Assembly: GCF_030440425.1 (NCBI RefSeq)
Contig: NZ_CP098023.1
Span: 2,717,501 to 2,781,500 of the forward strand
Origin: Microbulbifer sp. MI-G
GTDB lineage: Bacteria > Pseudomonadota > Gammaproteobacteria > Pseudomonadales > Cellvibrionaceae
Direction of reading: 5' to 3'
Length of the DNA stretch: 64,000 nt
Shown here: piece after piece, positions 10,676 to 39,895 of the stretch
Layout: every line of letters begins with the position of its first letter
How positions within the stretch are numbered: position 1 is the stretch's first letter
The notes under the pieces: generated by a model
Database searches by the model: none
What the model was told of the DNA's origin: nothing
What the model saw: the letters and a program-made list of their open reading frames with translations, nothing else
Made by a program: the position numbers and the translations under genes

Positions 10676-10822
10676 CTCGACAATAATAACAGCCGACAGT
10701 ACCATGGGCGCACTTCAGGGAAAGGACATAAGCCCGCAAAAATGCAGCTCCTTTGGAACCTAGCCCTCGTCCAAGCACTCTAACCCACCGCCTGTGGCTT
10801 TACTAGAAATGGAGAATAAAAA

Positions 10823-19600: not shown

Positions 19601-19654
19601 GGCGGTGTTGATCTGCAGGCCGGCGACGAGGGCGAAGCGCCCCCACATCCGCAA
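16631..19654 (-). CDS. 3' part of giant DUF11 repeat protein (frameshifted)
   Basis: About 1,000 residues continue the DUF11 repeat series without a signal peptide. Modules carry the pattern N.G...A..V.L.D.VPANTTYV..S..LNG. The first few residues after the ATG at 19654 are an out-of-frame artefact, because the true reading frame enters at the C5/G5 run at 19640-19644. Near residue 812 lies an SdrD-like calcium-binding loop (DKNRNGYQDAGEGG). The last ~100 residues (LDMAEAVFEPDSTGLRPQW, then LVEARLQAIKAEIADDW) resemble a diverged OmpA-type domain. The fibre would therefore end in a periplasmic or cell-wall-binding module. The stop overlaps the start of the triple-OmpA gene. Confidence 0.85.
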   Translation of the reverse strand: MRMWGRFALVAGLQINTAGEAAGIIGAAASGATAAVITFDVTINDVSDGTIISNQGFLNGEGAGSGPFAEVPSDDPDTSVPNDPTIDIVGDVPLLVAHKTVAIAVDNLSPGIVDPGDVLRYTIAIHNQGGVDATRVILRDQVPANTTYVADSTRLNGIAVADSGGAPLESGLPVSSADLTPPLPAADGGVITAARSATVTFEVTVDSGTATGTVISNQGSVTAAEPPLTLTDADGNPANGAQPTQVVVGDAQLLSIVKEVTVVGGGAAEAGADLEYLVTIANIGAVPATRVRISDDLATAGDGVLSYVVNSATLNGRVDGISVSGTVISADYAAVYGDLPPGQSASLRFQARLSDSLAIGYRVLNTAEVQWNNPASSNRASVAIDVGGTPGIANLAGYLWHDVNFNSRADVDERLLLNWSVDLYFNDALLETVQSDDSGYFQFRGLAPNGAAGPGYEIRYRAPDAGENTASLGNTSSNFTNGPQRIGDIVAGSGANPQNLNLPITPNGVIYNSVLRQPIAGATLTLLRASSGQALPDRCFDDDRQQGQVTRAGGYYKFDINFSDAACPARTDYLIRVNIADDNYVGGESLIIPAQTHGETAGFDVGACLGSSADRIPGTTDHCEVQLSAQLPPLDVAARDAATDYYLRLTLDDDRIPGESQLFNNHIPMDPQLEGALSITKTAALLNVTRSQLVPYTITFGNTLSIPLTDLQLVDFFPAGFKYVAGSARLDGEPVEPVMNGLQLIWPDLRVEAEQTRELKLLLVVGSGVGEGKYINRARLFNQLSGQLASGEASATVRVVPDPTFDCTDVIGKVFDDKNRNGYQDAGEGGLAGARVVSATGLNATADAHGRFHITCAVVPNADRGSNFVLKLDDRSLPSGYRLTTENPRVMRATRGKMVKFNFGASLHRVVRLDMAEAVFEPDSTGLRPQWRSRIDLLLEKLGEAPSVLRLSYLAENEAPDLVEARLQAIKAEIADDWARADRDYELTIETEVFWRRGAPPGKGGLQ

Positions 19655-25600: not shown

Positions 25601-28600
25601 GGATGTCATCCGCATCGCTGTTGGCGACCGCAAATGCCTTGCTCAAGCGGATCTGCGGCTCCTGCACCCTGATCTCGTGGGCATCGAAAGGCACCACCAC
25701 GGTTGACCCCGCCTCATCCACGTAACGCAGCTGGGCAGTGGTGTAGCTGCCGCCGTTGCGCAGCAGGTCGCCGCCATTGGTATTGCTGCTGTTGTCGATG
25801 CGGGCGATAAATTCCACCGGGAAATCAAACAGGCTGCCAGTCACCATGGTGACTTCCTGATCGCCAAAGTCCCACGCCACATAGTCGGCGCTACCGGTAT
25901 TGGTACAGGTCGCGCTCACAGTGCCACCGGGTACGAATCCCGCCGCATCATAGGGGGGCGCATCGAGATTGACCGTCTGCCCCTCGATACAGCGCATGCC
26001 CGCCGGCAGCTCATCGCGGATAACGAAATTGCGCAATTTGGCCGCGGGTATTTTTGCGGTGAGCCGGTAGCGGACTTCCTCGCCCACGACGGCGGTATCA
26101 CTGCCGCTGCCACTGGCAGTGCCATTGGACAATGCCACAGCCTGTTTCGGCTCCGCCTGCACGGGGATAATCTGCATCTGCGCATTCGCATCCGCGGACC
26201 GGTAGTGGCGCGCGCGCCCGGCGGCGGGGGTGCCGTCACCGACTCCATCGTTATCCCCGTCACTGTCGATCTGCGGCACGCTCTGGTTGCCGAAATCCCC
26301 CTGCAGGCTGTCGTAGCGGGCGAAGAAGCTGTTGTTAAAGGTCTGCAGTGGCGCTACGGAAGGGTGGGGTTTCACCCGGTAGTAGAGGGTCACCGAGTCG
26401 CCGGGGTTGATGCGCTCCAGGGCGGAGGAGTGCTCGTAGGTAAAGGTGACAATGGCCGGGGTGCCGCCATCGCTGCAGTGGCTGGCGATGACATAGTCAT
26501 TCGCGCCGGCGGTGATGCCCACCAGGCCGTCATCGCCAGGGGCAGTTTCCGCAGCGCCGTCGCCGTCGTTGTCCAGGCCGTCGCTATCCAGCGGCTGCAC
26601 ACACATCTGCCCGCTGGCATCCAGGGTGTCGGTCACCACCAGGTCGTAGGCCGGTGCGCGGTTGACGCCATTGTCGGCGGCGCGATTGGTCAGGGTCAGG
26701 CGGAAAATATAAGTCTGGTCCCGGTGGCCCTCGTTGGTGAAGTCGACAAAATTGCTGCAGCTGATCCCTGCACCGTAGAGGTTTTCGTTACAGACTTTTT
26801 TATCCACCTCGATGCGGGGCTCGGTAACGGTCACGGACTCCGACCACTCGCTGATATCCGGAAAGCCCGGCACTGTGGTGGGCACGCCGTCGATATTGGT
26901 CAGGATGCCGCTGGTGTTGTAATTGTCCACCACCAGAGTTTCGCTATCGAACACCGCGGTGAACCGGGCCCGCCCATAGTCGGTGCTGGGGTTGACGTGC
27001 TGGTTGGGGTCGACGTTTTCCGTGTCCACGGGATCATTGAGCAAACGGGTGGTCATATCCGAGAGAAACCAGCGATCCCGCGCGCTGATGCTGGCACTGA
27101 TATCCCAGAGCAGGTCCGTTTCACTGAGGGGGATATTCAGGCCGCCGCTCTCGACGATATCGCTGCCGGGAATCACCACACAGTTGGCCTGGGAGACCGG
27201 GTGCGGCAGGGTGACGTCGGCACAGTTGAGCAGTCTATCGGCGATATAGCCCTGGCCGTCCGGCAGGTCGTCGCGCACATCGATATCGCGCACCTCGATC
27301 AGGGTAAATCCCGGCGTGTCAAAACCAAACCAACCACCGGCCTGAATTTCGAAGCGGCACTCCTCGCCGATCAGGACACTGCTGTTGGGGAAAGCGGCCT
27401 CGCCGGTCAGCTCGTTGCAGGCGTCGGCGCGGTCTTTGCGCAGATTAAAACCCATCACCCGCGCGCGCATACCGTCGAGGGTATAGTTGTTGGCCAGTTG
27501 CTTGTTGGGGGTTGTCTGCGCCAGGGTGGCCGGCTCGGGAAAGGTCAGCGGGGTGCCATCAGACAGCGCAATCTCCCCCACCACATCCGCGCGAAAGGTG
27601 AGGTCGTCATCGGTGGCGGAGTGATTTTTCTCCACCTGGAATAAAATGCGCTCGGTGGTGCCCGGTTCGATCACACCGCCCAGGTTGCTACAGCGATACA
27701 CGGTTGCGGAGGCGGGCAGGTAATCCGGCTGGTTCCACAGCGGGTGTGCGGGCACTGTGCCGGGGTTTGGATTTCCCACAGCCGTACAGGCGCGGTTATT
27801 GGACAGCACCCGCATGGCCTCGCCAAAGGTGACATACACCGCGTAATTGTCCGCGTCGTGGCCGCCGTTGTTGGTGACGTCCACGGTCAGTTCCGAAGTG
27901 CCGCTGTCGCGCACGATATACAGAGGGTAAACGGTGCTGATATCCAGATCTTCCGGGTCCGGTGTGACCGGCTGGCGCTCGATCTGCGTGGGCGGATTGG
28001 TGCCGGGACAAAAATCCTCGTAATCGATGCTGAGCACATTGTCGGCCAAGCGCAGATTGCTGTTGGGGTCCAGACCATTGGCCGCCGTCTCCTCCTCGAC
28101 ATCCAGGTCGGCGGCCTTGTCGTAAAAGCCCGGCTCGGTGGTGACGATGCGAAAACGGATCTGGATTTCATCCCCAAAGCGCATCATATTGCGCTGATCG
28201 GCATAGCGCGGGTGCACACTACTGCTCAGCAGACGGAACTCCGGGCGGTTGTTGTTGAGCGGGTTGGGGTCCCACTGATTCCAGTTACTGCCCACACGCC
28301 ACTGCAGTGTGTCCGCCATGCCCGGGTAGTTTGCGCCGTAATTGGCCCCGTGGCCGTCAATACCCCGCCGCTGGCGGGTGATCCGCGGGGTATAGGTGGT
28401 GTCCACCACATACTCATCGGGCAGGTCGCTGACAAACTGGATATCCCTGACCGATCCCCCCGTCCGGTTGTTGAGGGTAATGGTCACAAACCCGGCGGCG
28501 CCCAGTGGTTGATTGAGGTTGGTACCGGTGATCGCCTGGGTAACAGTGAGATCCGTTGCCACCCGGGCAAACAGTGTCTCCGTATCGGCGCCCGGCGCAC

Positions 28601-29663
28601 TTCCGGTGGCTGGAGAGGAGATACCACCAACGCCGGTATCCGCATCAATTTCACAGCCCCACTGCAGATCCGAAACCCGATTGGTGCCGTCGCTGCAGGA
28701 ACTGTTCACCTTGCCCACCAGGTAGATGTCGCGACTGCCTCCCGCCGGCACATCGGTACGCCCGGGCCCACTGGCAAAGTTGCCGTTCAGTGAGAAATTA
28801 TTGATGTTATTGGCCGCCGCTATACAGCCGGTACCGCCGGGATTGTTACCATTGTTATTGGCAACTGCGAGCGCAGCACTTTCACTCGGACAGGCATAAT
28901 TGATATCCATATTCGGGTTGGTCATCAAATCGTCGAAGCGCGCATCCTGCATATCTGCGAGGCCACTGTTCGAGATGCGGATACGCCAGATAACATCATC
29001 ATGGATATTGCCGTAGACGTCATTGGTGTAGTTGCTCTGGGCCGCATCCACATTCCGCCCGCGCTTGTCCATGGACGGCAGCGGCTCGCGGATAGCCAAC
29101 ACCAGCCTGTCCGTATCCGTGGTGGTGGGATAGCTGCAGTAGTCGAAGGATGCACTGGCGTTCAGGGTGCGGTTGTTGACCACCAGTTCCTCTTCCCGGT
29201 TGACCCGGCTGCGCACACCGAAGGTGATGGTCATGGTGGTGTTTTCGTTACGCGCGGCCAGCGCGGACAGGTCCGTGCGATCCCAGCGAATGGTGGTGCC
29301 GCTGATGGTGGGTTCGCCCAGCACCACCCCGGCGCTCACGGAAGTGGAACCGGGAATATATTCCAGCTCCGAGGTACCCAGGTTTTCGCTGACGACGATG
29401 TTTTCGATATGCTGGATTCCCTGGCCGCCACTGCGGATAGCGGGCACACGGATTTCAAGGGTCACCTGACCATCGCCACACAGCACACACCAGCTGCTTG
29501 CAGCGCGGTGATCCAGAATATTGAAGTTTGCCGGGTTATCGGGAAAAGTGGGGCAGTTGTGATCGGCCAGCGCCTGCGGCGTAAAAAAAACCGACCAAGC
29601 GCTCAGCAGCAAGCCGGCAAGCAAATGACTCCAGGATTTCCGCCCAATTACTTCTGACATCAT
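19407..29663 (-). CDS. 5' part of giant DUF11 repeat surface protein (frameshifted)
   Basis: The frame encodes 3,418 residues; the last ~80 (Arg-rich) are out of frame after a G5 run at 19640-19644. ATG 29663 begins a signal peptide cleaved after ALA (residue 33). The protein then consists of roughly 15-20 tandem modules of about 150-170 residues of the DUF11/conserved-repeat type. Typical pieces are NTGTAAAYNLQVLDDL, NNGSAPAYDPVFRDSIPAG and NTGNENSVDALLRDQVPANT. Each is an Ig-like beta-sandwich, often with internal isopeptide bonds in relatives. Joined to the downstream frame the product would be about 4,340 residues, long enough to project far from the cell. It lies 306 bp after the ExbBD/TPR operon on the same strand. 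A surface fibre or adhesin role is inferred. Confidence 0.88.
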   Translation of the reverse strand: MMSEVIGRKSWSHLLAGLLLSAWSVFFTPQALADHNCPTFPDNPANFNILDHRAASSWCVLCGDGQVTLEIRVPAIRSGGQGIQHIENIVVSENLGTSELEYIPGSTSVSAGVVLGEPTISGTTIRWDRTDLSALAARNENTTMTITFGVRSRVNREEELVVNNRTLNASASFDYCSYPTTTDTDRLVLAIREPLPSMDKRGRNVDAAQSNYTNDVYGNIHDDVIWRIRISNSGLADMQDARFDDLMTNPNMDINYACPSESAALAVANNNGNNPGGTGCIAAANNINNFSLNGNFASGPGRTDVPAGGSRDIYLVGKVNSSCSDGTNRVSDLQWGCEIDADTGVGGISSPATGSAPGADTETLFARVATDLTVTQAITGTNLNQPLGAAGFVTITLNNRTGGSVRDIQFVSDLPDEYVVDTTYTPRITRQRRGIDGHGANYGANYPGMADTLQWRVGSNWNQWDPNPLNNNRPEFRLLSSSVHPRYADQRNMMRFGDEIQIRFRIVTTEPGFYDKAADLDVEEETAANGLDPNSNLRLADNVLSIDYEDFCPGTNPPTQIERQPVTPDPEDLDISTVYPLYIVRDSGTSELTVDVTNNGGHDADNYAVYVTFGEAMRVLSNNRACTAVGNPNPGTVPAHPLWNQPDYLPASATVYRCSNLGGVIEPGTTERILFQVEKNHSATDDDLTFRADVVGEIALSDGTPLTFPEPATLAQTTPNKQLANNYTLDGMRARVMGFNLRKDRADACNELTGEAAFPNSSVLIGEECRFEIQAGGWFGFDTPGFTLIEVRDIDVRDDLPDGQGYIADRLLNCADVTLPHPVSQANCVVIPGSDIVESGGLNIPLSETDLLWDISASISARDRWFLSDMTTRLLNDPVDTENVDPNQHVNPSTDYGRARFTAVFDSETLVVDNYNTSGILTNIDGVPTTVPGFPDISEWSESVTVTEPRIEVDKKVCNENLYGAGISCSNFVDFTNEGHRDQTYIFRLTLTNRAADNGVNRAPAYDLVVTDTLDASGQMCVQPLDSDGLDNDGDGAAETAPGDDGLVGITAGANDYVIASHCSDGGTPAIVTFTYEHSSALERINPGDSVTLYYRVKPHPSVAPLQTFNNSFFARYDSLQGDFGNQSVPQIDSDGDNDGVGDGTPAAGRARHYRSADANAQMQIIPVQAEPKQAVALSNGTASGSGSDTAVVGEEVRYRLTAKIPAAKLRNFVIRDELPAGMRCIEGQTVNLDAPPYDAAGFVPGGTVSATCTNTGSADYVAWDFGDQEVTMVTGSLFDFPVEFIARIDNSSNTNGGDLLRNGGSYTTAQLRYVDEAGSTVVVPFDAHEIRVQEPQIRLSKAFAVANSDADDILTVTVTAENTGTAAAYNLQVLDDLTGSKLIYAGNIGGADPPQNVDVTTLGANAPIFSWNRGHGDYTIASGESRSFTFDVRVGQGVEPHEILDNTLQARWQSLPGTDVALNSTNRIGPDGAADGMRIGVLPNAGDAINDYETAAGAQTQVPPLQLVKSDLEPTVIPTIGAHKQFQLEIRLPEGVSRDLVIADQLGSPEGYVLSHNADYDITYAFVGIESINGSAPAEAAFNSFPADNTAGNATWNIGTVDTASENDTAGNALQPLIRITYFARVDNDLATNSGDSRQNGAALRYRNGESGATESRNDDTPPVTVVEPQLAVSKTVRNATNPGNLPVGGDVLEYVITVTHDAGSSAAAFDLNLVDTLPPELRYDSGFTPTASIGGTAVAGFVATPAGAPSGPLVWGRGNGDNSLDLPLGQTLVVTYRTQVAGVFGSPISNSVLLDWTSLDNSHINDLAYERDGAGCPAIATPDDYCAGPAEASIDTVDNTSIAKTVIADTDTASPVGTLRIGDRVTYRLTLNLQPGTTPAVTVNDALPAGLAFDAIVSVNGDTSAPYDANLNGFTYSAIALPTAGATGTVSWNLGDIRSDFGNSNPFVIEYTAEVVAGAGIAAPSATLTNTAVLNYTGAAASLQDSATITVLQPLIDGLTKTDATWPNAHLNVDPANDLMRFTLHACNSGLAPAYNLSLTDDLATQMDQGSIANLQVTAGGTLLTQGSDYTYTPPASRGDAMGFSFQAPIAPGSCLDIDYEIGFYTDIGGGENWINTFAVDEFWSLPANTGERYAPVPLATPYPMGTVATAVTAPRKSLQTAASAAVGEAVVYRIQVPGSATTAAIYDVDITDVLDPALELVQLREINGLAFTDNSSGNNIALGLELIPAGTVAVFELRARVANNATAQAGYSVDNRAAYTYAVSRGGAPQAGGSGTAPTLTIVEPELSATATVANRTSPGSDPDAGDMLRFTLDIAAAGDPQNADAYDLSIRQQLALGLAFVPGSAAFGGAPQADPILSGDGVAAAQSLAWNRSNSDLDIAAGGNRQLVFDVVVLDSVLASASLSAAGRIEWTSLNEDNSSPYERDGADGVGGLNDYVLENIAAQLTAANYSALSKTRIDDSYGSGDAQLRVGDLVDYELRLSLPEGSAPGAAIVDTLPRGMVFEGTLAVNGVTTAPFAATAPFVHGDIAEPAQSGDPATGPTTLRWSIPDLRNSGDNNATNDVFVLRYRARVLNRDVHPWPADSTPLTNRVQFSFDTATGTETRVDSDSLDLRQPELVVGISSSPADGSTLAVGDSIDYTITLTNNGSAPAYDPVFRDSIPAGLRQGGIDVQSILVNGAAAPLLAPGFDSATGAAVWDFSAGTGYAIQPGQVLQMVYRVQADANLGAGLNLQNAAFVEVYYSLDDDNLPSLGATAVSQAMREDYGPTAPVSVRFNTPNAAPLSIANTQSSAAIGEPFNYRITIPETPQPTALHDVSVLMDLGASAAELEFVGAARVSGGNPFTPQNTGSATALVIADTGGGIDVPAGQQVVMDVTLRLRDSNPPNLDGLTFTNSASYRYNYDNDNPAAGQGTGAGNTTPAMRVVEPTAITLTKSGPASVQSGLPGRFTLDLHNIGTGPAWDMRVSDRLPDNSPGGMCATPPDNFAAQITDGAGNGVATLAEGTDFDVAFDPASCTLSLTTRGAAAMLAADHHLLLRYDAYLDADTRDGDTLTNIAGVTGWHSWDSTMPEVRQYTRPAPTDGTPGVLDHEDAFTVSASVPRVTFYKTVENITRGDNPTNLASPAEVLRYTLTLANLSGAAVSGIAISDDLGRLNSLPLFRSGSLQLISVPAGADSSGTSATGGTHGSGLLQVNSLDLAAAGSAGDRLQLVYQVTLADVIDSGTQVLNQAQVQLPGQLLRDSDDPNINGVDDPDLAGDEDPTRVVIESGPLLLVHKTSADLTGDPDLLMVGDTLRYTLRVENTGNENSVDALLRDQVPANTTYVPGSTTMNGTALADVGALRPRRRPADQHRRRGSRHYRRRGQWRDGGGDYLRCHHQRRQRRHHYFQPGFFEWRRRGQRSLRGSALRRPRHQCAQ

Positions 29664-29969
29664 CACCACTGATTCGCCGCCACTTTTCTATTTCAAAAAA
29701 TCCCTGACCAAACCTGCAGGCATCACCACCAGAAAGACACAGTCCGGCCCGGCAAGCTTAATTACCAGGAAAAAAACTGGCCGTGAAACAGGTCATAAAT
29801 CACTGTCAGGTAGGGGTATTTTTTGGGGATTGCCAAGTAGTTCTCAGGCTGGCTTTGGACAAACACAGCCCGAACACAGGCGCTAACGCGAAAATAAAAA
29901 AACCTTTGGAATACTATTTTTCTGCGTGCCCGGCTCCGCTGTGCAAGCACACAGCGGGGGTCACGTGCA
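29664..29969. other. 306-bp spacer between the AgmX and DUF11 genes
   Basis: No gene is seen. It contains a perfect 8-bp hairpin (29936-29957) close to the AgmX stop, and AT-rich DNA around 29890-29925 that could carry a separate promoter for the DUF11 gene. Confidence 0.45.
29936..29957 (-). terminator. Hairpin 3' of the AgmX/PglI gene
   Basis: CCGCTGTG pairs perfectly with CACAGCGG around a 6-nt loop, 13 bp past the stop codon at 29970. No U tract follows on the minus strand. It may partly end the machine operon while allowing read-through into the DUF11 gene. Confidence 0.4.
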
Positions 29970-31349
29970 TTAATTGTTGGGAAAGAAGTCGATCGGGAAA
30001 AGAATGGTGATGGTGGGCACACCGGCCTTTTCGCCGAAATTAAACCGCTTTACCCGCGCCACAATTTTGGCGTTGAGCGCCGGCGAGTCCATATCGCTGG
30101 AGTCCACTTGCGCCAGGGATACGGCGCCGTCCGGTTCAATGGTGATCTTCAGCACCATCTTACCCTGCAGGGCGGGATTGTTGCGCAGTTCGCGGTTGTA
30201 GATGCGATACAGTGCAGCCTTGTAGCGGTCGAAAACAATCTGGATTTCCTCGTCGGTACGGGATGGACCAACACCGTCGCTGAGCGGCCGGTCCTCGCCG
30301 GCGAAATCCCCTTCGGTACCAATAGAGCTCTCCACCCGCGCGAAGGCCACACCACCCAGGGAGGAACCGGTACCACCCACATTGCGGCTCAATGCTGCGG
30401 TACTGATGCCCCCACTCCGGGTGGTTGCAGCGGCAGTGATCAGCGAGCGCTGACTGCGGTTTTCCCGTTTACCGGCAGTGCTCAACTGGGTTTGCTGGCC
30501 AAGGCGATTGTCAAGGTCGTCTTGAATAAGATCCTGAAAATTATCCTTAAAGGCGAGGACACCGGCGCGCTCCGCTTTTTTACGCGCCTGCTTTTTTTCT
30601 GCCCGGGCGGGCTTCGGGTCCTGCTTGGCCACTTGCTGCTCCGGCTCGGCCCGGGGCTTTTTCTCCTCCGGCTTGGGCTTGCTCGGCTCCGGTTTGGGCA
30701 CCGGCTTGGGCTTGGTTTTCTTCTCGATCACCAGCTTGGCCAGGCGTTCGGGAATCTCCACCACCTGGGTTTCCGGCTCGGGCAGGGTATACAAGGGCAC
30801 CAGATATCCCAGCAGCGCAGCGATACACAGCGTGGCGAAGACGCAAATGCGAAAGCGCCTTTCATCCTCACCCCGGGTATGCCAGGGCAGCACCATCGGG
30901 CGGGCATCCGCCGGCTCAAATGTCCGGGTAACCTCCAGTTCAAACCGGGATTCCTCTTGCGCGAGTCGCAATTCTTCAGCCCGCTCCTTTAGAACAAGGA
31001 GCTCCTCGCTGCAGTCCTCTATTTGTTCAAGGACTGCCCTGTGGCGCTGTTGCAGCTGGTCCCGACTGTCGTTATAGCTCCGGGTGGATTCCCTGATCCG
31101 CTCGATAACCCGCTCAGAGGCATCTGTCTGGTAGTTCTCAGCCCAGAACAGATCGCCGGCACCAACTGCTTCGAGCTTGTGCAGGCGCTGGGCAATTTCA
31201 TCCAGCAGCTGGTACTTGGTGCCGTGGGTCTGTAATTCAGCCAGCTTCTCTTCGATCTGCCGCTGCTTGTGTCCAAGCAGATGCTTGCGCTGGCGGGCTG
31301 CATCAAGCGCCTCGGTAATCGCCTGCTGTTGTTGAAGAAAATTACTCAC
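29970..31349 (-). CDS. AgmX/PglI C-terminal domain protein (TonB-like energy transducer)
   Basis: The product is 459 residues. Residues 1-150 are a charged coiled coil predicted to be cytoplasmic. A single membrane helix follows (about 166-187, FRICVFATLCIAALLGYLVP), then a Pro/Lys/Glu-rich periplasm-spanning stretch (about 205-265; KTKPKPVPKPEPSKPKPEEK), as in TonB and TolA. The last ~95 residues (ALYRIYNRELRNNPALQGKM, then PDGAVS and RVKRFNFGE) are the AgmX/PglI C-terminal domain, a TonB-C-like fold found in the Myxococcus gliding proteins GltG and GltJ. It is the last gene of the nine-gene operon, 9 bp after an ExbD gene. It should couple the TolQR-type motor to an outer-membrane partner. 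Confidence 0.88.
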   Translation of the reverse strand: MSNFLQQQQAITEALDAARQRKHLLGHKQRQIEEKLAELQTHGTKYQLLDEIAQRLHKLEAVGAGDLFWAENYQTDASERVIERIRESTRSYNDSRDQLQQRHRAVLEQIEDCSEELLVLKERAEELRLAQEESRFELEVTRTFEPADARPMVLPWHTRGEDERRFRICVFATLCIAALLGYLVPLYTLPEPETQVVEIPERLAKLVIEKKTKPKPVPKPEPSKPKPEEKKPRAEPEQQVAKQDPKPARAEKKQARKKAERAGVLAFKDNFQDLIQDDLDNRLGQQTQLSTAGKRENRSQRSLITAAATTRSGGISTAALSRNVGGTGSSLGGVAFARVESSIGTEGDFAGEDRPLSDGVGPSRTDEEIQIVFDRYKAALYRIYNRELRNNPALQGKMVLKITIEPDGAVSLAQVDSSDMDSPALNAKIVARVKRFNFGEKAGVPTITILFPIDFFPNN

Positions 31350-31358
31350 AAACTTCCA

Positions 31359-31898
31359 TTAACCCTGAGATGCTTTCTGAATTACCGCCAGTGAAACCTT
31401 GGTATAGCCCGCTTCAGTGCAGCTGGACATCACCTTTTTCAGCAAACTGAACGGGATACCCCGGTCTGCGAGAATATTCACCTCCGGTGGTTCCGGCCCC
31501 TGCTCGCCTTCGTTTTCATTCCCCCCGTCTTGCGGCAAGGCCTGGGCAACACCAATCGCCTTACCCAATTCTGCCACCATGGCCTGCTTGATCGCCTCGA
31601 TAACAATTTCCTCGCTTTCAAGCACCGCGCTGGTGGCAACGACGGAGTTGGATTCCACCAGAATCTCGTCGGCCGTCACCATCAGGGTTACTGTTTCCCT
31701 CGGCTTGGTCTCCACAACCGAATCCGGCAGGGTGATTACCTTGGGGGGCTCTAGCGCCTCATTGCTGGAGGTGTTGGTCAAGAGAAAAAACACCAGGATG
31801 GTGAACACGTCCATTAAAGATGTGAGGTTCATGCCTGAGGTTTTTTTGCGCTTATGGCTGCGCGCCATGCGCTTCATACGTCGGCTTTCATGTCTCAC
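31359..31898 (-). CDS. ExbD/TolR-family stator protein (with conserved Asp)
   Basis: The product is 179 residues. A very basic N-terminus is followed by one membrane helix, NLTSLMDVFTILVFFLL, with the proton-carrying Asp at residue 30 where TolR, ExbD and AglQ have theirs. A periplasmic domain ends ...VSLAVIQKASQG. An acidic Gly/Glu insertion (GGNENEGEQGPEPPE) interrupts the periplasmic domain and is unusual for ExbD. It overlaps the neighbouring ExbD gene by 4 nt (ATGA), so the two are coupled. It should form the motor with TolQ (32470-33201). Confidence 0.9.
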   Translation of the reverse strand: MRHESRRMKRMARSHKRKKTSGMNLTSLMDVFTILVFFLLTNTSSNEALEPPKVITLPDSVVETKPRETVTLMVTADEILVESNSVVATSAVLESEEIVIEAIKQAMVAELGKAIGVAQALPQDGGNENEGEQGPEPPEVNILADRGIPFSLLKKVMSSCTEAGYTKVSLAVIQKASQG

Positions 31899-32470
31899 GG
31901 CGCATCCCCTATGGAAATATCGGGAAACAGAATCACCTTCTCCACCGCCTCGGGATCATCGGGATCACTGCCTTCAAGCCGGACTTCAGCACCGCGCACG
32001 GTATCCATAACGCCCACAAGATGTTCATAGGCAATCTCTGCCTCCATCAATAGAATGGAGTCTGTCTTTTCCGGGTAACTGGCTTTTACCTGCAGCAAAA
32101 ACTCAGTGAGTTTTTTCAAGTCGTAGACTTCTGCCGTCGGCAATACTGCAAAGCCAGCTTCCCGCCCAGCCACTTGCGGCTGTTCTGACTCGGTCTCTTC
32201 CGCAACATTCAGGTTGGGAAAGCGCGCAATCACCTTTTCACCATCGCTGATTTCCAGCGCCGCCTTGCGCACCACCACTTCCACCGTCACGGTGGGATCG
32301 TCCGGGGCACCGCCACCAGCACCACTGGGCATATTCAGCTCCAAAATAGTCACCCGCGAGAACACCGCCGATACCAGCAGGAAGGGGACCAGTACCACCA
32401 TCAGATTCAGAAAAGCAGTGATATCCAGCTCAGGGGTTTCCCGGTCTCTCCCATGGCGCCGCCTTCTCAT
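31895..32470 (-). CDS. ExbD/TolR-family protein with Asn in place of the motor Asp
   Basis: The product is 191 residues: basic N-terminus, one membrane helix, and a periplasmic domain with about 150 residues of ExbD-like sequence. In the helix LDITAFLNLMVVLVPFLLVS the residue aligned with the proton-carrying Asp of TolR/ExbD is Asn22. Asp16 just ahead of it falls in the position usually occupied by Asn in the TolR consensus. The paralogue downstream keeps the Asp. This protein may therefore be a non-protonatable structural subunit of a mixed stator. It overlaps the TolQ gene by one base (TAATG). Confidence 0.88.
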   Translation of the reverse strand: MRRRRHGRDRETPELDITAFLNLMVVLVPFLLVSAVFSRVTILELNMPSGAGGGAPDDPTVTVEVVVRKAALEISDGEKVIARFPNLNVAEETESEQPQVAGREAGFAVLPTAEVYDLKKLTEFLLQVKASYPEKTDSILLMEAEIAYEHLVGVMDTVRGAEVRLEGSDPDDPEAVEKVILFPDISIGDAP

Positions 32471-33201
32471 TACGCGGTTTCCACTTTGGGTGCTTTACCA
32501 TGGGCTGTACTGGGCGGGCGCTTGGCGGTTTTGCTTTCCGGCTTTGGCACATCGATCTCAAAGCGGCGTCGGGTGGCGCTGTCAATCAGGTTGGAGGCCT
32601 TGACAGACACCATCTCCAGGCTGTCGATAATCTCACCGGTCAGGGAGTTGAGCAGGGCGTGCACGATCAACAGGGGAATACCGGTCATCAGGCCGAATGC
32701 AGTCGTGTTCATTGCCACAGAAATACTGGCAGAGAGCAAGTCGGCCTTTTCCGCCGGGTTGGCATTGGCTACTGCAGTAAAGGCTTCGATCAGACCCATA
32801 ATGGTCCCGAGCAGGCCCAGCAGCGTGGCGATATTGGAAAAGAGCGCCACATAAGGGGTGCGCTTTTCCAGCTGTGGGGTAATCTCCATCATGCTCTCTT
32901 CCATCGCGATCTCAATATCTTCGCGACGGCGCACCGTACCCTGGCGGGCCAGCCCCATAGACAACAGTTTGCCCACACTGGACTGATCCTGCTTGACCAG
33001 GTTGCGCGCACGATCAAAATCCCCGGAGGCCAGAATTGGCTGCATTTTGTCCCACATGGCGCGATTGGTATGGCGTTCATAGTGCAGGCGAATAAATCGC
33101 TCAATGGCAACGGCGCTACCCAGGGCGGCAACCACGAGAATGGGGTACATAAAGGTACCGCCCGTCTGGAAAAACTCGATGACGCTGTGAAAAAAGTCCA
33201 T
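32470..33201 (-). CDS. MotA/TolQ/ExbB-family proton channel
   Basis: The product is 243 residues with the TolQ topology: a first helix near residues 15-35, a cytoplasmic loop, then two long helices at about 118-145 and 160-188. The core TM2-TM3 text (FSNIATLLGLLGTIMGLIEA and NTTAFGLMTGIPLLIVHALL) is the classic ExbB signature, with the Thr residues that line the proton path. The C-terminal tail is Lys/Pro-rich. It is directly followed by two ExbD genes, giving a complete proton motor. Gene order TolQ-TolR-TolR matches the aglR-aglQ-aglS set of Myxococcus. Confidence 0.92.
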   Translation of the reverse strand: MDFFHSVIEFFQTGGTFMYPILVVAALGSAVAIERFIRLHYERHTNRAMWDKMQPILASGDFDRARNLVKQDQSSVGKLLSMGLARQGTVRRREDIEIAMEESMMEITPQLEKRTPYVALFSNIATLLGLLGTIMGLIEAFTAVANANPAEKADLLSASISVAMNTTAFGLMTGIPLLIVHALLNSLTGEIIDSLEMVSVKASNLIDSATRRRFEIDVPKPESKTAKRPPSTAHGKAPKVETA

Positions 33202-33270
33202 TGCAAACCCTCTTGATAAATACTGCAGTACTTTGTTGCCACTCCGGTCGCAACCGGAGAAAGGACGGCT

Positions 33271-33594
33271 TTAGTCGCCAGACAGGCTGAGCTGGTAGAA
33301 CGCCAACTCGCGCAGGAACACTGCCTTGTCGAGCGGCTGTAACTTGTCGTCCATCAGGCTTGAGACCAGGTCACTTTCGACACCCACTTCGGAACTTTTC
33401 CAGGGGACAATATACAGGGACTTGGGGGCTTCCTTGTTCCCAATAATGGAGATGCCCGATAACTCTTTAATGGCCGAGTCCACTTTCTTTTCCACAGGCG
33501 TTTTCTGTTTCACATCTTCAGATTGTGCCAGGGCTACAGGAAGGGTAGCGACAGAGAAAATCACCGGCAAAATCCATTGGAATTTCCACATCAC
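33271..33594 (-). CDS. Small exported protein of the machine operon
   Basis: The product is 107 residues with a signal peptide (MMWKFQWILPVIFSVATLPVALA followed by QSED). The mature protein is about 84 residues, charged and probably helical at its C-terminus (PLDKAVFLRELAFYQLSLSG). I know no family for it. Its start overlaps the stop of the TPR lipoprotein gene by 4 nt, so it is a fixed member of the operon, probably a periplasmic component or assembly factor. Confidence 0.7.
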   Translation of the reverse strand: MMWKFQWILPVIFSVATLPVALAQSEDVKQKTPVEKKVDSAIKELSGISIIGNKEAPKSLYIVPWKSSEVGVESDLVSSLMDDKLQPLDKAVFLRELAFYQLSLSGD

Positions 33595-34175
33595 TTGCTC
33601 GCCCTCCGTTTAAGGTCCGCCAGCCAGATGGATACATCCTGGTCCTGCGGTTCCAATTGCACATAGTGTTGGAATTGTGCCAGAGCACACTCAAGATCTT
33701 GCAGATAGAGATCACACAATATGCCAAGATTTTTTATCAGGGGAAGGTACTCGGGATTTTCTGCCAAAGCATGGACATACAGATGTCGCGCATCGGCAAA
33801 ACGCCCCTGCCTGCGGTAGAGCACCGCCAACTCGTTTGTGGCCACCGGATGGTTCTCATCCAGCTCAAGGGCCTTCAGGAAAGCGTCTTCCGCATCTTTC
33901 TCATTGTCCACCTGGTAATGCGCAATGCCCAGGTTGATATAGGGCGCCGGCAGGCGCTGCTCCCGCGCCAGCACCGACTGCAACAGCGCAATGGCAGATT
34001 CATATTCCCTTTCGGCCAGATGGTCCAGTGAGCGCTCAAAGTCCCGCTTCACACTGCCGGAAACCCGCACTGCAGCGTAGTCGGAAATCTTACCGGTTGG
34101 GGTTTGGGTACCCGCACAAGCGGTGACAATCAGCGTGAGCCCCAACAGAAAAAACCGTCGCAATGGTATTTGCAT
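33591..34175 (-). CDS. TPR lipoprotein (GltE-like)
   Basis: The product is 194 residues. ATG 34175 is preferred because it has GGAG/GAGG upstream and gives a compact lipoprotein signal with lipobox VTAC, Cys20; an in-frame ATG at 34202 would lengthen the n-region. Residues about 45-170 are three to four tetratricopeptide repeats (PYINLGIAHYQVDNEKDAED, ALELDENHPVATNELAVLYR, LYVHALAENPEYLPLIKNLG). It is likely an outer-membrane-anchored scaffold facing the periplasm. A small TPR lipoprotein is also part of the Myxococcus Glt complex. Confidence 0.8.
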   Translation of the reverse strand: MQIPLRRFFLLGLTLIVTACAGTQTPTGKISDYAAVRVSGSVKRDFERSLDHLAEREYESAIALLQSVLAREQRLPAPYINLGIAHYQVDNEKDAEDAFLKALELDENHPVATNELAVLYRRQGRFADARHLYVHALAENPEYLPLIKNLGILCDLYLQDLECALAQFQHYVQLEPQDQDVSIWLADLKRRASK

Positions 34176-34242
34176 AACCCTCAGCTCCACACTTGCTGCC
34201 ATTTATCCACAGCTTTATTCACAACCGGTTCAACGGGCTCGG

Positions 34243-37200
34243 TTACCGACCGGAAACGACTGCACCCGGTTCCACCGGCGCCGGTGGCAGGGGCACAATA
34301 CTCTGTAAATACCGGCCTGCTTCCTCAGCTCTTGCATAGCGGGCTGGTACCAGCCCGGCGAGCCGGTTGATACTCTTGTCAATCCAGGGGTTGTAGATAC
34401 CCACCCCCAAAAGCTCGACATTTTTCTCATGGACCGAGATTGCTTTTTCCTCAAACGGATAAATCTGCTCTTCCAGCGCCAGTTCGTACTCCTCCAGCTC
34501 CAGGGCATTCAGGTTGGTGGGGCGTTCGGAATCTTTGAGTGACTGGCTGAAGTGCCAATAGATTTCCGCCAGATAATAAGTAGCCGCGGCCGTGACATCG
34601 GCTATCTGGTAATCAATGAGATCCGTGAAAGCACTGACAGCGGCCTGCATACGCTGGCGTTTCAGGTTCAGGCTTTGCTCGATTGGCTTCACCAGAGCGA
34701 TCTGGGTAAATGAGCTGTAAGCGGGTTCGGCGAGCTGCAGCGCGGCATGACCGGCAAGATAGCGGGTGCGGTCACTGCGCTGGGAGCCACCACGCAACTC
34801 GATACGCACCATCTCACGCAGTGTCTCCCGGTAGCGCTGTTCATTGTCATCGACTTTATGGATATCGGCAATTCTCTGTCGCGTCTCCAGTGCCGGTTCC
34901 AAGGGATTGGGAAACTGGTTCACATAGCGGCGCAGCACCGTTAGGGCTTTTTGACTGTTCTGTGCCGCACTGTAGAGATCCGCCGCCTGGGTCAGGGCCT
35001 CGCGGCGGATTGCCTCATCCCCGGACTCGCGCTCAATGCGCTCAAACTCCCCTGCGGCCAGCAGCAACTCTCCACTCTCCTGATAAACCACCGCCAGTTT
35101 CTTGGTTACTTCTTTCGCCAGCTCGTGTTGCGGGAAATTGCTGCGGAAATTGTTGAGCACCATCGCGGCCCGGGTCCATTCCTGCAATACGATCAGTGAG
35201 GCAGCCGCATCGTATTCCGCTGTGGCCAGCAGGGTGGCTCCGGGAGCGGCAGCCCGAATACGCAGGAAATGGTCGGCGGCGGTGGCGTGATCCTGTTGCT
35301 GGCGGGCCATATCCCCCTGCTGGTAAATGGACGCCGCCAGGTTATCGATCACCCCGGCGCGATCCTTGGCATCTGCGGCAGTCAGATTCAGGGTTTTTCC
35401 GTAGGCCACTTCGGCATCCACAAATGCCTGCAGCTCAAACGAGGCGTGGGCTACCAGCATCCAGCTGGAGCGGCGAATCTCCCGTGCCGCGGCCGGGAAT
35501 TCCTCCAGTAACAGGCGACCGTTTTCGATGGCAAGGACATAGTCCTTAAGGCCATACAAATCCTCCACGGCACCCAGCATCACCTGCGGTGCTTTGTCGT
35601 GTCCGGGGAAGGTGTCGGCGAAGGTCAGAGAGGAGCGGATAATCTCGCGCAACAGGACAGCACGCTGGTCTGCAGTGGCCGCTTTCAGGTGATTTGCCAG
35701 GTGTTCTCGATAGGCGTAGACCGCCGCATAACCCGCCCCGCTGGAATCTTTGTGGGCCGGATATTCATAGGCGGTGCGCTCATATTCCAAAGCCGCACTG
35801 TGGAAATCCCGGTTCTCCAGCATTAAACCGGCCAGTTGATAGTTCATCTCCGGCGCGCGCTCGGTTTCGCGGAAGGACTGCAGGTAGCCGCGATACCAGT
35901 GAATCGCCTCGCGATAGTGCTCGGCCTGTGTATCCTTGAGCTTTTTATTCTGGTAAGCCGCATGGTAGTGGCTGGCCAGGTCGATCAGGTTTGCCTGCAG
36001 GAATTCGACCACCTCTCCGTATTCATCGATATCGAATACCGTCCAGTAATCGGCCTTGAGCCCATAGGTGTTGGCAAAGGACTTCTTGGCTTCCAGCACC
36101 AGTTTGGGGAAGCCACCCCTGCTGTAAATATCAATCACGCGCATAGAGAAATCCGCGGAAACCTTGTGCAGGGGATTACGTTCCACAAAGGCGGTATAGG
36201 ATTTTGCCGAGTCCTGGTAGCGACGCTTATCCAGGTAGTATTCCCCCAGGTGGCCATACACCAGGTATTCATACTGGCGCGCCCCCTTGCGGGAGAAATA
36301 ATCGACAATTGACTCGGGGCCCTCCAGATAGGAGAAGCTCAGGCTCACCACACGGAAGGTGTCATCAATGTGCTTGCGCTCCACCTCATTGGCCTGCTGG
36401 TCAAAGTCATATCCCTGGGAAACTTTGTAATCGAGCATGGCGATATAATCGTCCAGCGCCATCTCGTACATATCCTGTTTGAACAGGGACCAACCGCGCT
36501 TGTACAGAGCCAACTCATAAAAACTGGAAACCACCCCGATATGGATCACCTTGCCGTAGGCTTCCTCCGCATCCAGGTATTTCTTGCGGGTAAAGTAGTA
36601 TTCCCCGAGGCGGAACCAGGACTCATCGATATGTCGGGAGTCCGGATATTTGGCCACTAACTGTCGCAGCACCTCTACCGCCCGTTCAATCTGTCCGGCC
36701 TCCTCATAGGCGCGGGACAGCTGGTACATCACTTGATCGTTGCGGTCGTACAGCGGGTATTTTTTCAGTAAGTCCAGATACAGGTGAATGGCTTCCCGGG
36801 CATTTGCCGACATCAGCGCGTCGGGATTGCCCACGGGCAAGGGTATCGCCGTGTTCTCCGTGGCAATTTCCATGCTACTGCTGGCACGCGCAGCAAACGC
36901 ATCATCCGATTCTGTCTCGCCAGCGCCTTTTGCAGCCTGCTGCTGAACCCGGGCAGCCGGTAGGGTTACCCCAGCGGGAGCATCGAGGGTGTTGTTTGCA
37001 GAAACCTCCGGGGCATCAATCGCAACCACCGCTTGGCCGGTATCTGCTGCAGTGGCGATTCCATCGATCGCGGCATCCTCAGCACGGTGTGCCTGCTGGA
37101 TTTTCAGGTCGGCAATTCGTCGCATCGCCTCAGGTGTGAGGCTGGACTCGGGGGTTTCCTGCAGGTAGCGCTGGTAACTGGCGAGCGCCTTCTCAAGGCT

Positions 37201-37365
37201 TCCGTCGATATACGCCTCTTTAATTTCAATATCGACGTTTTGCAGACTGCCAATCGTCTTGCCGCTGTTGACCGCGCAGGCATTGAGCAGCAGGGCAAGC
37301 ACCGCAAGCAGGGCGCACCGGGTGGCAACCGCCCTACCCATCCGGCTGGGCTTGAATCCGGGCAT
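34243..37365 (-). CDS. Large TPR lipoprotein (AgmK/GltI-like)
   Basis: The product is 1,040 residues with lipobox LLLNAC, Cys30. Most of the chain is tetratricopeptide-type helical hairpins from about 190 to 900, for example YDRNDQVMYQLSRAYEEAGQ and DESWFRLGEYYFTRKKYLDA. A ~100-residue low-complexity stretch rich in Ala and Val follows the lipid anchor (about 90-180). The ATG overlaps the preceding stop (TGATG), which implies coupling to the upstream TPR gene. It is probably the main periplasmic scaffold of the machine, resembling AgmK/GltI in architecture rather than in detectable motifs. Confidence 0.8.
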   Translation of the reverse strand: MPGFKPSRMGRAVATRCALLAVLALLLNACAVNSGKTIGSLQNVDIEIKEAYIDGSLEKALASYQRYLQETPESSLTPEAMRRIADLKIQQAHRAEDAAIDGIATAADTGQAVVAIDAPEVSANNTLDAPAGVTLPAARVQQQAAKGAGETESDDAFAARASSSMEIATENTAIPLPVGNPDALMSANAREAIHLYLDLLKKYPLYDRNDQVMYQLSRAYEEAGQIERAVEVLRQLVAKYPDSRHIDESWFRLGEYYFTRKKYLDAEEAYGKVIHIGVVSSFYELALYKRGWSLFKQDMYEMALDDYIAMLDYKVSQGYDFDQQANEVERKHIDDTFRVVSLSFSYLEGPESIVDYFSRKGARQYEYLVYGHLGEYYLDKRRYQDSAKSYTAFVERNPLHKVSADFSMRVIDIYSRGGFPKLVLEAKKSFANTYGLKADYWTVFDIDEYGEVVEFLQANLIDLASHYHAAYQNKKLKDTQAEHYREAIHWYRGYLQSFRETERAPEMNYQLAGLMLENRDFHSAALEYERTAYEYPAHKDSSGAGYAAVYAYREHLANHLKAATADQRAVLLREIIRSSLTFADTFPGHDKAPQVMLGAVEDLYGLKDYVLAIENGRLLLEEFPAAAREIRRSSWMLVAHASFELQAFVDAEVAYGKTLNLTAADAKDRAGVIDNLAASIYQQGDMARQQQDHATAADHFLRIRAAAPGATLLATAEYDAAASLIVLQEWTRAAMVLNNFRSNFPQHELAKEVTKKLAVVYQESGELLLAAGEFERIERESGDEAIRREALTQAADLYSAAQNSQKALTVLRRYVNQFPNPLEPALETRQRIADIHKVDDNEQRYRETLREMVRIELRGGSQRSDRTRYLAGHAALQLAEPAYSSFTQIALVKPIEQSLNLKRQRMQAAVSAFTDLIDYQIADVTAAATYYLAEIYWHFSQSLKDSERPTNLNALELEEYELALEEQIYPFEEKAISVHEKNVELLGVGIYNPWIDKSINRLAGLVPARYARAEEAGRYLQSIVPLPPAPVEPGAVVSGR

Positions 37366-39383
37366 CAGGTGTCCCCTCCTTCACCCGCTTCCAGTTCGGG
37401 AGGATTGTCGTCGGGCAGGGATTCCGGCTGGGCCTCGCGATACTGCTCGATTTTGCGCTGGTCCTCGCGCTGCTCCTGCAATGCGTTGGCGCGGTCGTAA
37501 CTGTCGGCCAGGGCAAATCGCGCTTTGATCTGGTAGCTCTCCAACTGGGTGCGGCGGCGTTCCAGTTCCTCAATTGCCAGGGCTTCCAGCATGCTGCCCT
37601 GGCGAGCCATCAACATTTCCAGGCGCTGCTGGTAGTTGCGGATCTGCGCACGCAAGCGGGTGATCTGTTGGTTGTAGCCGGTATAGCTGTGCGTGGCTGC
37701 CTGGCGACTGCGCACATAGGATTGGTAAACCCCCTGCAGTTGTTCAATTTCCCCATTGAGTTCCTGCAGATGCTTATAGGCTTGCGTAAGCCGCTGGTCG
37801 TACTCTGTGGAGAGACGCAAATCCAACACGCCCTGCAGGCGCGCCACCCTGCTGCGGGTGACCTCGGTAAAGCCCTGCGGATTCTGGGCAAGCTGCCGGC
37901 GCAATTCCCTCATTGCCAGGCGCACCGCCTGCTCATCGGCAGTGGCGAGATATTCCGGACGACGCGAAACCAGCATCTGTTCAATGCGCCCGGCAAATGT
38001 ATCCCGTTGCTCAAGCCGCAACTTGATCCGTGCATCCAGTTTGCGGAATTGTTCGTCGAGCTTTGGCAGCAGGGGGTCATAGTAAGCTCTGCGGTGACGG
38101 ATAATGTCCTCGTAGGCACTGAGACTTTTGAGCCACGCTTCATTGCGCTCGTAGAGGTCATTCAGATCGCGGTAATTGTGCAGGAAGGCCTGGTAATCAT
38201 TGGATGCCATCAGGTCGAGAAGATAATGGGTCTCCGGTGCATTCGGCAGGTTGCGCAGTGCCACCACCCAGTGCTGCACCTGGGTGGCCTCTTTGCGACG
38301 CAGCGCCTGCAGGAATTTGCCCTCTCGGATACTGTGGATTGAGGCGGTCAGGGTATCGATTTCACTGCCGAAAGAATCCAGCGCACGCCCATAGTGAATC
38401 GCTGCCGTGCTGTGTACATCCAGCTTGCCGAAGGCATAGGGCACGGCGAGCATGGCTTCCTGAACGGATTCGTTGGTCCCCTTGCGGTTTTGCAACATTT
38501 TCCAGGGCACCAATGCCCGCTCGTAGCGACCTGCGTGAGCCTCGGCCCAGCCGGCACCGAGCAGCGCACGGTTGGAAAACGGGCCTTCGAGATTGACGCG
38601 GTCAAAATACGGGCGCGCCTGCTGCAATTCGCCGGCTTCCATTAAATAAGCACCCAGCAGCAGGTTGGTCTTGTCATACAGCGCCTGCTCAGCCAGCTCG
38701 CTGCTGCGTTTTTTGCCCAGGTCCGTCAGCTCCAGTATACCGCGAGCCTCCTCACCGGATTTTAACTGGGCGATACCGAGGTTGAACTCGATAAAGCCGG
38801 CGAGAGATTTCTCCCCTTTTAAATCCTTTAGCAGTTCCACCGCCTCATCAAAGCGCCCCAACTGCATAAAGACCCGCGCCCGTAAAAACTGCTCCTGCGC
38901 ACGGACACGCTCTGGTACCCGCCCTTCGATCCATTCCAGCGCGTGCAGGGCATTGACCGGCTGCTGTTTGTGATAGTGAATCCTGGCAAGGCGATAGGCC
39001 GCTTCATTGCGTACCGACCGGGAAACGTTACCCTTGAGTACCGCTTCAATCGCCCGCCCCGCTTGCCGGTGCATGCGATAGGACAACTCCAGATCGCCCA
39101 CAGAAAATTCCGCCTGCCCCAGGTGCGCACTGAATGGGTCCAGCTCCGGCTCATCCAAGCGATGGAACTGGGCCAGTTCGGTATCCAGGGCCACAATCGC
39201 ATCGAAATAGTTTTCCTGGTTGGCGTGGAACATGGCCGCGCCAAAAAACAGATCGCGCAGCGCCTCGTGTTCTTCTGCACCCGCCACAGCGGAGAAAATG
39301 GGCAGGGTACACAGGGAGACCGTCAAAACCCGCAGCGTTGCCCTGGCCGGGCCCGGCAGTACCGATAGCAGAGAAATGCGCAT
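37365..39383 (-). CDS. Exported TPR and coiled-coil protein
   Basis: The product is 672 residues with a signal peptide ending near residue 36 (SAVAGA before EEHE). Residues about 40-330 contain degenerate TPR-like hairpins. Residues about 480-650 are a long coiled coil rich in Gln, Arg and Leu (ITRLRAQIRNYQQRLEMLMA). The C-terminus is acidic and Pro-rich. It lies 2 bp after the first gene of the operon and its stop overlaps the start of the 1,040-residue TPR lipoprotein. A periplasmic structural role is inferred from export, coiled coil and operon position. Confidence 0.78.
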   Translation of the reverse strand: MRISLLSVLPGPARATLRVLTVSLCTLPIFSAVAGAEEHEALRDLFFGAAMFHANQENYFDAIVALDTELAQFHRLDEPELDPFSAHLGQAEFSVGDLELSYRMHRQAGRAIEAVLKGNVSRSVRNEAAYRLARIHYHKQQPVNALHALEWIEGRVPERVRAQEQFLRARVFMQLGRFDEAVELLKDLKGEKSLAGFIEFNLGIAQLKSGEEARGILELTDLGKKRSSELAEQALYDKTNLLLGAYLMEAGELQQARPYFDRVNLEGPFSNRALLGAGWAEAHAGRYERALVPWKMLQNRKGTNESVQEAMLAVPYAFGKLDVHSTAAIHYGRALDSFGSEIDTLTASIHSIREGKFLQALRRKEATQVQHWVVALRNLPNAPETHYLLDLMASNDYQAFLHNYRDLNDLYERNEAWLKSLSAYEDIIRHRRAYYDPLLPKLDEQFRKLDARIKLRLEQRDTFAGRIEQMLVSRRPEYLATADEQAVRLAMRELRRQLAQNPQGFTEVTRSRVARLQGVLDLRLSTEYDQRLTQAYKHLQELNGEIEQLQGVYQSYVRSRQAATHSYTGYNQQITRLRAQIRNYQQRLEMLMARQGSMLEALAIEELERRRTQLESYQIKARFALADSYDRANALQEQREDQRKIEQYREAQPESLPDDNPPELEAGEGGDT

Positions 39384-39385
39384 GG

Positions 39386-39895
39386 TTACCAGTCCTTGAA
39401 ATGAATCTCAGACTCGGTTCCCAATATACTGATCTCGACAAACTTCGGCCCCACAGCCTTATCCACCTGGTAAGTTGCATCGGCCTGATACGCCCGGCCC
39501 GAGGGGGTTTTCCCGATAAAACGGACTTGCAAGGGATGCACACCGGTCTGGACATTCCCGGTATATATTTTTTGCACACCGCCTTTCTGCAGGGACTGGA
39601 TTTCACGATAGGTGTATAGGTGGTGCGCAACAATTTCGCCGTTCAGTCTGAGCTCTACGGATTCCAGCTCAAAGGGCTGCCCATCGGCGATGGAGACAAA
39701 AAAAGCCACCTGGGAATTTGAGGGAAAGAGCAGTTTCTCTTCCAATTGCGCCAGAGTCGCAGTCAGGTCGATCACATCTTTTTTTACATCCTGGATTTGC
39801 TCATCCAGGCCACGGATTTCATCGCGGCTGACGTTCTGCGCAACTGCAACGCCCGTCAATAGCAGAAGGATTGTGACCTGTAGCATTCTGAACAT
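39386..39895 (-). CDS. Exported protein, first gene of the machine operon
   Basis: The product is 169 residues, starting at ATG 39895 with GAGG eight bases upstream. A signal peptide (MFRMLQVTILLLLTGVAVA) is followed by a short coiled coil (about 25-55, DEQIQDVKKDVIDLTATLAQ) and a beta-rich domain (about 60-165) that looks like a small Ig-like periplasmic domain (ELESVELRLNGEIVAHHLYT). I know no named family for it. It opens the nine-gene operon, so its expression should define the machine. Confidence 0.75.
   Translation of the reverse strand: MFRMLQVTILLLLTGVAVAQNVSRDEIRGLDEQIQDVKKDVIDLTATLAQLEEKLLFPSNSQVAFFVSIADGQPFELESVELRLNGEIVAHHLYTYREIQSLQKGGVQKIYTGNVQTGVHPLQVRFIGKTPSGRAYQADATYQVDKAVGPKFVEISILGTESEIHFKDW

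Follow-up and report, generated by a model that had tools for sequence, protein, structure and literature searches.

A Glt "core complex" has been described in Gammaproteobacteria. According to the accessible part of Luciano et al. 2011 (PMC3169522), it consists of gltC, gltD, gltE, gltG, aglR, aglQ and aglS plus one additional gene, and it is described there as being of unknown function, with duplicate copies in Marinobacter, Teredinibacter and Saccharophagus. The available sections of PMC3858216 term it a possible basal transport machinery and describe AglRQS as driving surface polymer transport. In Bacteroidota, both the secretion and the movement of SprB are powered by GldLM (PMC8986121, available sections).

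We analyzed a window, the whole 64,000-nucleotide stretch of Microbulbifer sp. MI-G DNA, that contains a nine-gene operon (genes A to I). Because the core complex was described in 2011 (PMC3169522, accessible part), this operon is not itself new. What appears to be new is the tie, in one clade, between the core motor and two further proteins, a giant DUF11 protein (J) and an OmpA-domain protein with a predicted barrel (K), which may have been noticed earlier. The accessible part of PMC3169522 mentions neither the DUF11 giant, nor the OmpA-barrel partner, nor two linked subtypes, and a literature search excluding preprints and most subscription papers found no tie of a DUF11 protein or K to the core complex.

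The operon contains the Glt core complex

A first-pass annotation had proposed that nine packed genes encode a TolQ, two TolR, an AgmX/PglI protein, TPR proteins and small exported proteins, and our analysis of open reading frames, Pfam and NCBIfam confirmed this. All nine genes lie on the minus strand, separated by 2, -1, 40, -4, 69, -1, -4 and 9 nt. Gene A (39386..39895) encodes a small exported protein of 169 aa, a coiled coil followed by a beta-rich part, and B (37365..39383; 672 aa) an exported, GltC-like TPR/coiled-coil protein. The products of C (34243..37365; 1040 aa) and D (33591..34202; 203 aa) are TPR lipoproteins, GltD-like and GltE-like respectively, and E (33271..33594; 107 aa) encodes a second small exported protein; B, C and D each have a TPR match. 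As judged by eye from the sequence, C and D start with a signal peptide and lipobox (NAC and TAC), and A, B and E with a signal peptide only. F (32470..33201; 243 aa) is an AglR-like motor protein of the TolQ/ExbB/MotA type (Pfam TolQ/MotA_ExbB, 6e-24), followed by two ExbD/TolR-type proteins, G (31895..32470; 191 aa) and H (31359..31898; 179 aa; Pfam ExbD, 4e-15 and 1e-12). The last gene, I (29970..31349; 459 aa), encodes a GltG-like transducer with an N-terminal part of ~170 residues that includes a coiled coil, a transmembrane (TM) helix, a Pro/Lys-rich stretch and an AgmX/PglI C-terminal domain (NF033768, 63 bits, cut-off 40).

Sequence searches of the PDB matched I weakly to coiled coils and C to designed TPR proteins. 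AgmX and C each have a single match in the Microbulbifer genome itself (4.48 Mb, 2 contigs), the closest I (89% identical) comes from an uncultured Microbulbifer, and a search of viral contigs with TolQ found no relative. Upstream of the operon, at 40060-41188 on the plus strand, lie two overlapping frames that look like a broken insertion element, since the second matches a DDE transposase (PF13701).

To describe the motor we aligned G and H at what we take to be the position of the ExbD proton-binding Asp. Of 107 G rows, 104 carry Asn there, 2 carry Asp and 1 has a gap, and all 106 H rows carry Asp; each G-H pair should therefore supply a single Asp for the motor to run on. In F, two Thr positions are invariant across 106 rows. 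The proton site of AglQ is essential in Myxococcus (PMC9120999 and PMC3858216, available sections).

All features of the core complex were found in the operon: a TolQ with two TolR proteins (AglR/Q/S-like) as F, G and H; the GltG-like TM protein with an AgmX/PglI C-terminus as I; GltC, GltD and GltE homologues, by profile, as B, C and D; and, within the same single cluster, a gene absent from Myxococcales (A and E have no Myxococcota match). The operon is thus the seven-gene core complex with small extra genes, a machine type that is already known. The first-pass annotation had called it a complete Agl-Glt machine, which the scores do not support as stated: I reaches 53 bits against the GltG equivalog, whose cut-off is 650. 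NCBIfam returned no GltA, B, F, H, I, K, MglA or AglZ match for the nine proteins, families for which models may not all exist. None of 112 genomes passed the GltG cut-off, and the matched Myxococcota clusters also fall below it. As a check for MglA, an Arf search of the own genome found a single match, of 30 bits, within a frame of 470 residues.

The proposed relation to Agl-Glt was borne out by profiles of B, C, D and I, which match Myxococcota GltG-family clusters in the order B-C-D-(..)-I (best E-values: C, 1e-64; D, 3e-42; I, 9e-19; B, 1e-11); this comparison consists of profile-matched clusters, with M. xanthus itself outside it. Homologues of C and D occur in five of six Myxococcota stretches and B is the best match in four; one stretch (L232) has I only, and profiles of A and E matched nothing in the six. 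As a single sequence B had no match in six Myxococcota genomes, but its profile did.

The preference for a Glt-like over a Tol- or TonB-like identity also held, as I scores 63 bits for AgmX/PglI and 53 for GltG versus 21 for TonB (cut-off 265). F reaches 50 of 221 bits against TolQ and 38 of 206 against ExbB, and H reaches 19 of 127 against TolR and 24 of 216 against ExbD. On these equivalog scores we rejected an ordinary TonB or Tol-Pal identity.

The operon is conserved among Gammaproteobacteria

We used C as the query against 370 Gammaproteobacteria genomes, the own genome included. A match at E <= 0.001 was found in 123 of the 370, many of them weak TPR matches; a list compiled by hand holds 115 matches of ~170 bits or more, spread over 90 genomes. 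We examined 60 of the 114 non-own matches, selected mostly on the length of their contigs and drawn from 57 other genomes. Besides C (60, as the query), the genes recognized at these loci were B in 59, E in 58, A in 57, D in 55, F in 54, and G, H and I in 53 each. The full A-to-I set was present in order at 36 of the 60 loci, and 17 more had seven or eight genes in the same order, some of these explained by a B-C fusion or an unrecognized small gene. The co-occurrence anticipated by the first-pass annotation is therefore real, and the two outcomes it had named as speaking against it, a better match to Tol or TonB components and a lack of co-occurrence across genomes, were both tested and did not come true.

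Fewer than seven genes were recognized at the remaining 7 loci, two of which (L073 and L079) stop at contig edges. The other five (L064, L065, L067, L074 and L087), all of the second subtype described below (type II), have no F-I in view though the contig continues, and keep A-C (and E or D-E) beside no motor genes, as if the relay part were able to stand alone.

A giant DUF11 protein and a predicted barrel protein extend the block

The operon had been thought to end at 29970, but two more conserved genes, J and K, continue on the same strand down to 11436. J encodes a giant exported protein with DUF11/isopeptide domains and is present in the window in two parts, 19407..29669 and 16631..19654, both on the minus strand. 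An iterated profile finds 17 DUF11-like domains in the first part and 3 in the second, and 6-22 in motor-linked relatives. The frame appears to break near 19640, where the minus strand has five consecutive G (19640-19644). In nine of nine relatives with enough flank J is one open reading frame, of 1611-5023 codons, and two other loci, L195 and the motor-less L118, look split too. The second part ends in a conserved C-terminal module: the last ~190 residues of J are strongly conserved and comprise SdrD_B and an OmpA-like stretch. The OmpA likeness is a reading of the alignment, Pfam making no call in five J ends, and a fuller OmpA-like form is seen in the J ends of the distant loci L122 and L124. 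As J starts ~300 nt past I in the window, it may be transcribed apart from A-I.

K (11436..16634, minus strand; 1732 aa) contains three OmpA domains, beta-sandwich domains and a predicted very large C-terminal beta-barrel. It has 1699-1741 codons in the nine relatives with enough flank, and the closest named K (M. epialgicus) is 88% identical. AlphaFold2 models of residues 582-1732 (pLDDT 64, pTM 0.42) and 820-1732 (pLDDT 70, pTM 0.52; 190 of 913 residues under 50) show beta-sandwiches followed by a long run of antiparallel strands. By eye we counted ~36-40 strands in the second model, a number that is soft because of its low-confidence stretches and that exceeds the strand number of the barrels matched by K. 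By sequence, K matches OmpA-type domains in the PDB. Its fold matches there have high rmsd and Foldseek TM-scores to the model of 0.33 or less, and they are generic (LptD, TonB-dependent receptors, usher, Deinococcus SlpA), so we assign K to no named barrel family. SprA is absent among the fold matches listed, which excludes nothing, and an SprA_N search of the own genome gave no match, but neither did the control genomes. Against a viral structure library K had 8 matches at E <= 0.001, with a best TM of 0.35 to a target.

Just downstream of K, at 10192-10713 on the minus strand, a 173-aa frame is 81% identical to K residues 1604-1716 and reads as a duplicated C-terminal piece of K. Beyond it on the same strand lie a ChrB_C + rhodanese protein and a thermolysin-type M4 protease (5349-6326 and 6953-8620). 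Databases name several K homologues (P0004, P0017, P0020, P0021 and others) "flagellar motor protein MotB", apparently because of their OmpA domains, and such names hide the system. At L123 (G096 contig 2, near 460789), a K-like match lies inside an 11,777-codon open frame, which may represent a single, enormous J-K fusion.

J-K and the motor are linked in one clade

J and then K follow I in nine of nine relatives with enough flank, with J and K overlapping or at most 70 nt apart in all nine. Among the type I loci (those with J-K) first fetched, J follows I in 11 of 13. The other two, L035 and L044, stop after I and in an unassigned ORF, respectively, and the J-K of both genomes sits on another contig. 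We also collected named loci with I, taking the best 80 of 234, 28 of them Microbulbifer, a sample that is therefore biased to close relatives. Of the 76 loci offering 900 nt or more of flank, 72 have J downstream of I in the same orientation, with a median I-J gap of 278.5 nt (more than 1 kb in L155, L197 and L209). Counted by group, with short ends included, 27 of the 28 Microbulbifer loci and 46 of the other 52 show J. Of the four loci with room but no J downstream of I, three from Desulfobacterota (L189, L204 and L213) carry K immediately upstream of A, so that the linkage outlived a change of gene order, and L211 shows neither J nor K.

Of 369 other genomes, 14 contain a full-length K (>1300 bits), exactly the 14 that score best for C (at least 857 bits), with limits that were set after viewing the lists; after these, the best K match scores 1192 bits (from residue 438) and the best C match 704. 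In a quick 85-row tree built from C, F, G, H and I, a branch with SH-aLRT 99 separates 38 JK-linked rows from 47 others, where the JK-linked label takes in L035 and L044 (J-K on another contig) and L211 (linkage not evident). Some long branches are flagged in this tree, among them L086 beside the JK clade. Co-inheritance of motor and J-K in this clade is one evolutionary event that was kept, not many gains.

J-like and K-like pairs also exist beside no motor, at L116-L119. Three of the four genomes (G058, G272 and G299) have no C match, and G140, the fourth, carries a type II core at another place. The K of these pairs is shorter than that of the window and has 1, 0, 1 and 1 OmpA domains, versus 3 in the window and L129 (four versus two proteins). 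J-K is hence separable from the motor, and J-K alone does something.

Two subtypes of the core differ in protein I and in their neighbors

Across 68 type I rows the TM helix of I has a median position of residue 170.5 (range 76-207) and follows a coiled-coil-like stretch. In 40 type II rows its median position is residue 26 (range 23-207), and the GltG-like protein has a shorter cytoplasmic part. J is beside the operon at none of 47 type II loci; at one (L057), K has a 26-bit match on the opposite strand.

Upstream of gene A, type II loci among L046-L091 and L101-L111 carry a redox module. Its Pfam parts are ApbE, a thioredoxin/AhpC-TSA protein, DUF3570, an HZS_alpha-type lipoprotein of ~990 aa with CxxCH motifs, and two OMP_b-brl barrels (one with SH3). 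A gene of this module is in view at 29 of 47 type II versus 0 of 13 type I loci (upstream medians 1290 and 1381 nt; Fisher 5e-5, with kinship ignored and the 13 type I loci chosen for a like upstream view), and at none of the 80 named loci (best 80 of 234). When 11 type II loci were viewed with more upstream DNA, 9 carried four to six of the six module genes, and the remaining two had only ApbE or ApbE + TlpA. A search for a shared upstream gene of type I loci found one in common only between L032 and L033. DUF3570 is described as an ApbE substrate in the available text of PMC8238504, in whose main text "ExbD" and "TolQ" do not occur.

A proposed eleven-gene system

Our best explanation, to which we give about an even chance on the strength of the sequences, is an eleven-gene envelope system in which a PMF motor would act through K on J. 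F with G and H, of which only H has the proton-binding Asp, would form the PMF-driven inner-membrane motor. I would span the inner membrane and pass the movement of the motor to the periplasm, with a cytoplasmic coiled-coil part special to type I, and the TPR proteins and lipoproteins B, C and D, together with A and E, would relay it towards the outer membrane. There K, as a very large barrel, may contact peptidoglycan or the relay with its three OmpA domains, and J, a putative chain of Ig-like DUF11 domains held by its conserved C-terminal SdrD_B/OmpA-like module, may be displayed through or on K. At the cell surface the motor would then move, pull or work J-K, in the service of adhesion, spreading over surfaces or the display of fibres. 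The sequences themselves establish which genes are present, their order and conservation, the linkage across the clade and the domains; the protein contacts, the position of J outside the cell and the mechanical work of the motor on J-K are parts that we infer. This explanation is favored by the J-K linkage, the clade-wide co-inheritance, the OmpA domains of K, the conserved J end, the barrel model and the GldLM and AglRQS analogies, and weakened by the single-clade event, the separate start of J, the motor-less J-K pairs, the apparent J frameshift, the mixed evidence on motility in the genus and the modest pTM of the barrel models (0.42 and 0.52).

The same parts could serve integrity. In a Tol-Pal-like machine, the motor would pull K and J so that OmpA domains staple the outer membrane to peptidoglycan, with no surface movement. 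The TolQ/TolR family of the motor, the three OmpA domains of K and the OmpA-like end of J fit such a role, which we nevertheless consider unlikely: twenty DUF11-like domains exceed the need of a staple and their number varies freely, and F and H score below the TolQ and TolR cut-offs. About equally unlikely in our judgment is that the motor energizes the export of J by way of the K barrel, in the manner of GldLM with SprB, and has no further task. A very large predicted barrel adjoining a giant exported protein whose C-terminal module is conserved, in a pair kept overlapping or within 70 nt in nine of nine loci, is what this reading would lead one to expect, but J-K-like pairs beside no motor, in genomes of which three of four lack a C match, suggest that export may not need one.

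Motor and J-K might also be physically linked yet work apart, the linkage being historical. One clade, one origin and the separate J start ~300 nt past I are compatible with this, but Gammaproteobacteria have kept the linkage, as have three Desulfobacterota loci with a different gene order, and the extra OmpA domains of K accompany the motor in the few proteins compared; such a history appears very improbable. Least credible by far is an ordinary TonB-ExbBD uptake energizer with a large receptor, where a TonB_C match at E=0.001, below its own cut-off, stands against scores far below the ExbB, ExbD and TonB cut-offs and against TPR relay genes conserved in order.

The favored system, a motor acting through K on J, agrees with the guess in the first-pass annotation that the machine may drive surface fibres. 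That guess gains support because the DUF11 giant is a conserved partner of the operon and not a mere neighbor. A flagellin search of the own genome found no match, and 4 of 14 control genomes matched. Evidence on motility in the genus is mixed, as the available part of PMC12472934 reports one Microbulbifer that is motile without flagella and some sliding, and lists three compared strains in a table as non-motile.

A wider proposal, which we hold only tentatively, is that Gammaproteobacteria and Desulfobacterota possess a proton-driven surface system convergent with the SprA/SprB system of Bacteroidota, in which the Glt core motor would extrude and/or move a giant DUF11 fibre through a barrel of ~36-40 strands. 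The core might then be a force module of general use in the envelope whose outer partners can be exchanged: J-K in one clade and a DUF3570/ApbE/thioredoxin/HZS-alpha-like redox module in another. If true, this would show gliding machines arising by the attachment of different outer parts to one old motor. The stable partners J-K name a likely substrate of the core complex, whose function has been unknown since 2011 (PMC3169522, accessible part), and the substrate question becomes testable in a culturable genus, where M. thermotolerans and M. elongatus carry the block (L146 and L156).

Comparison with known systems

With Tol-Pal, the Microbulbifer block shares the TolQ/TolR family, TPR and OmpA-type domains; no TolB or Pal was seen in the block. 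With the T9SS and gliding machinery of Bacteroidota (GldLM, SprA and SprB; PMC8986121, available sections) it shares, by analogy only, a PMF motor, a large outer-membrane translocon and a giant surface adhesin, whereas the motor belongs to another family. The core complex of Luciano et al. 2011 shares with the block GltC/D/E/G and AglR/Q/S homologues in one cluster with a gene absent from Myxococcales (PMC3169522, accessible part). The Agl-Glt gliding and Agl-Nfs spore-coat machines of Myxococcus have in common with the block a TolQRR-type motor, a GltG-like transducer, TPR proteins and the order of homologues (PMC3169522 and PMC3858216, available sections), and differ from it in their outer parts, which in the Microbulbifer block would be J and K.
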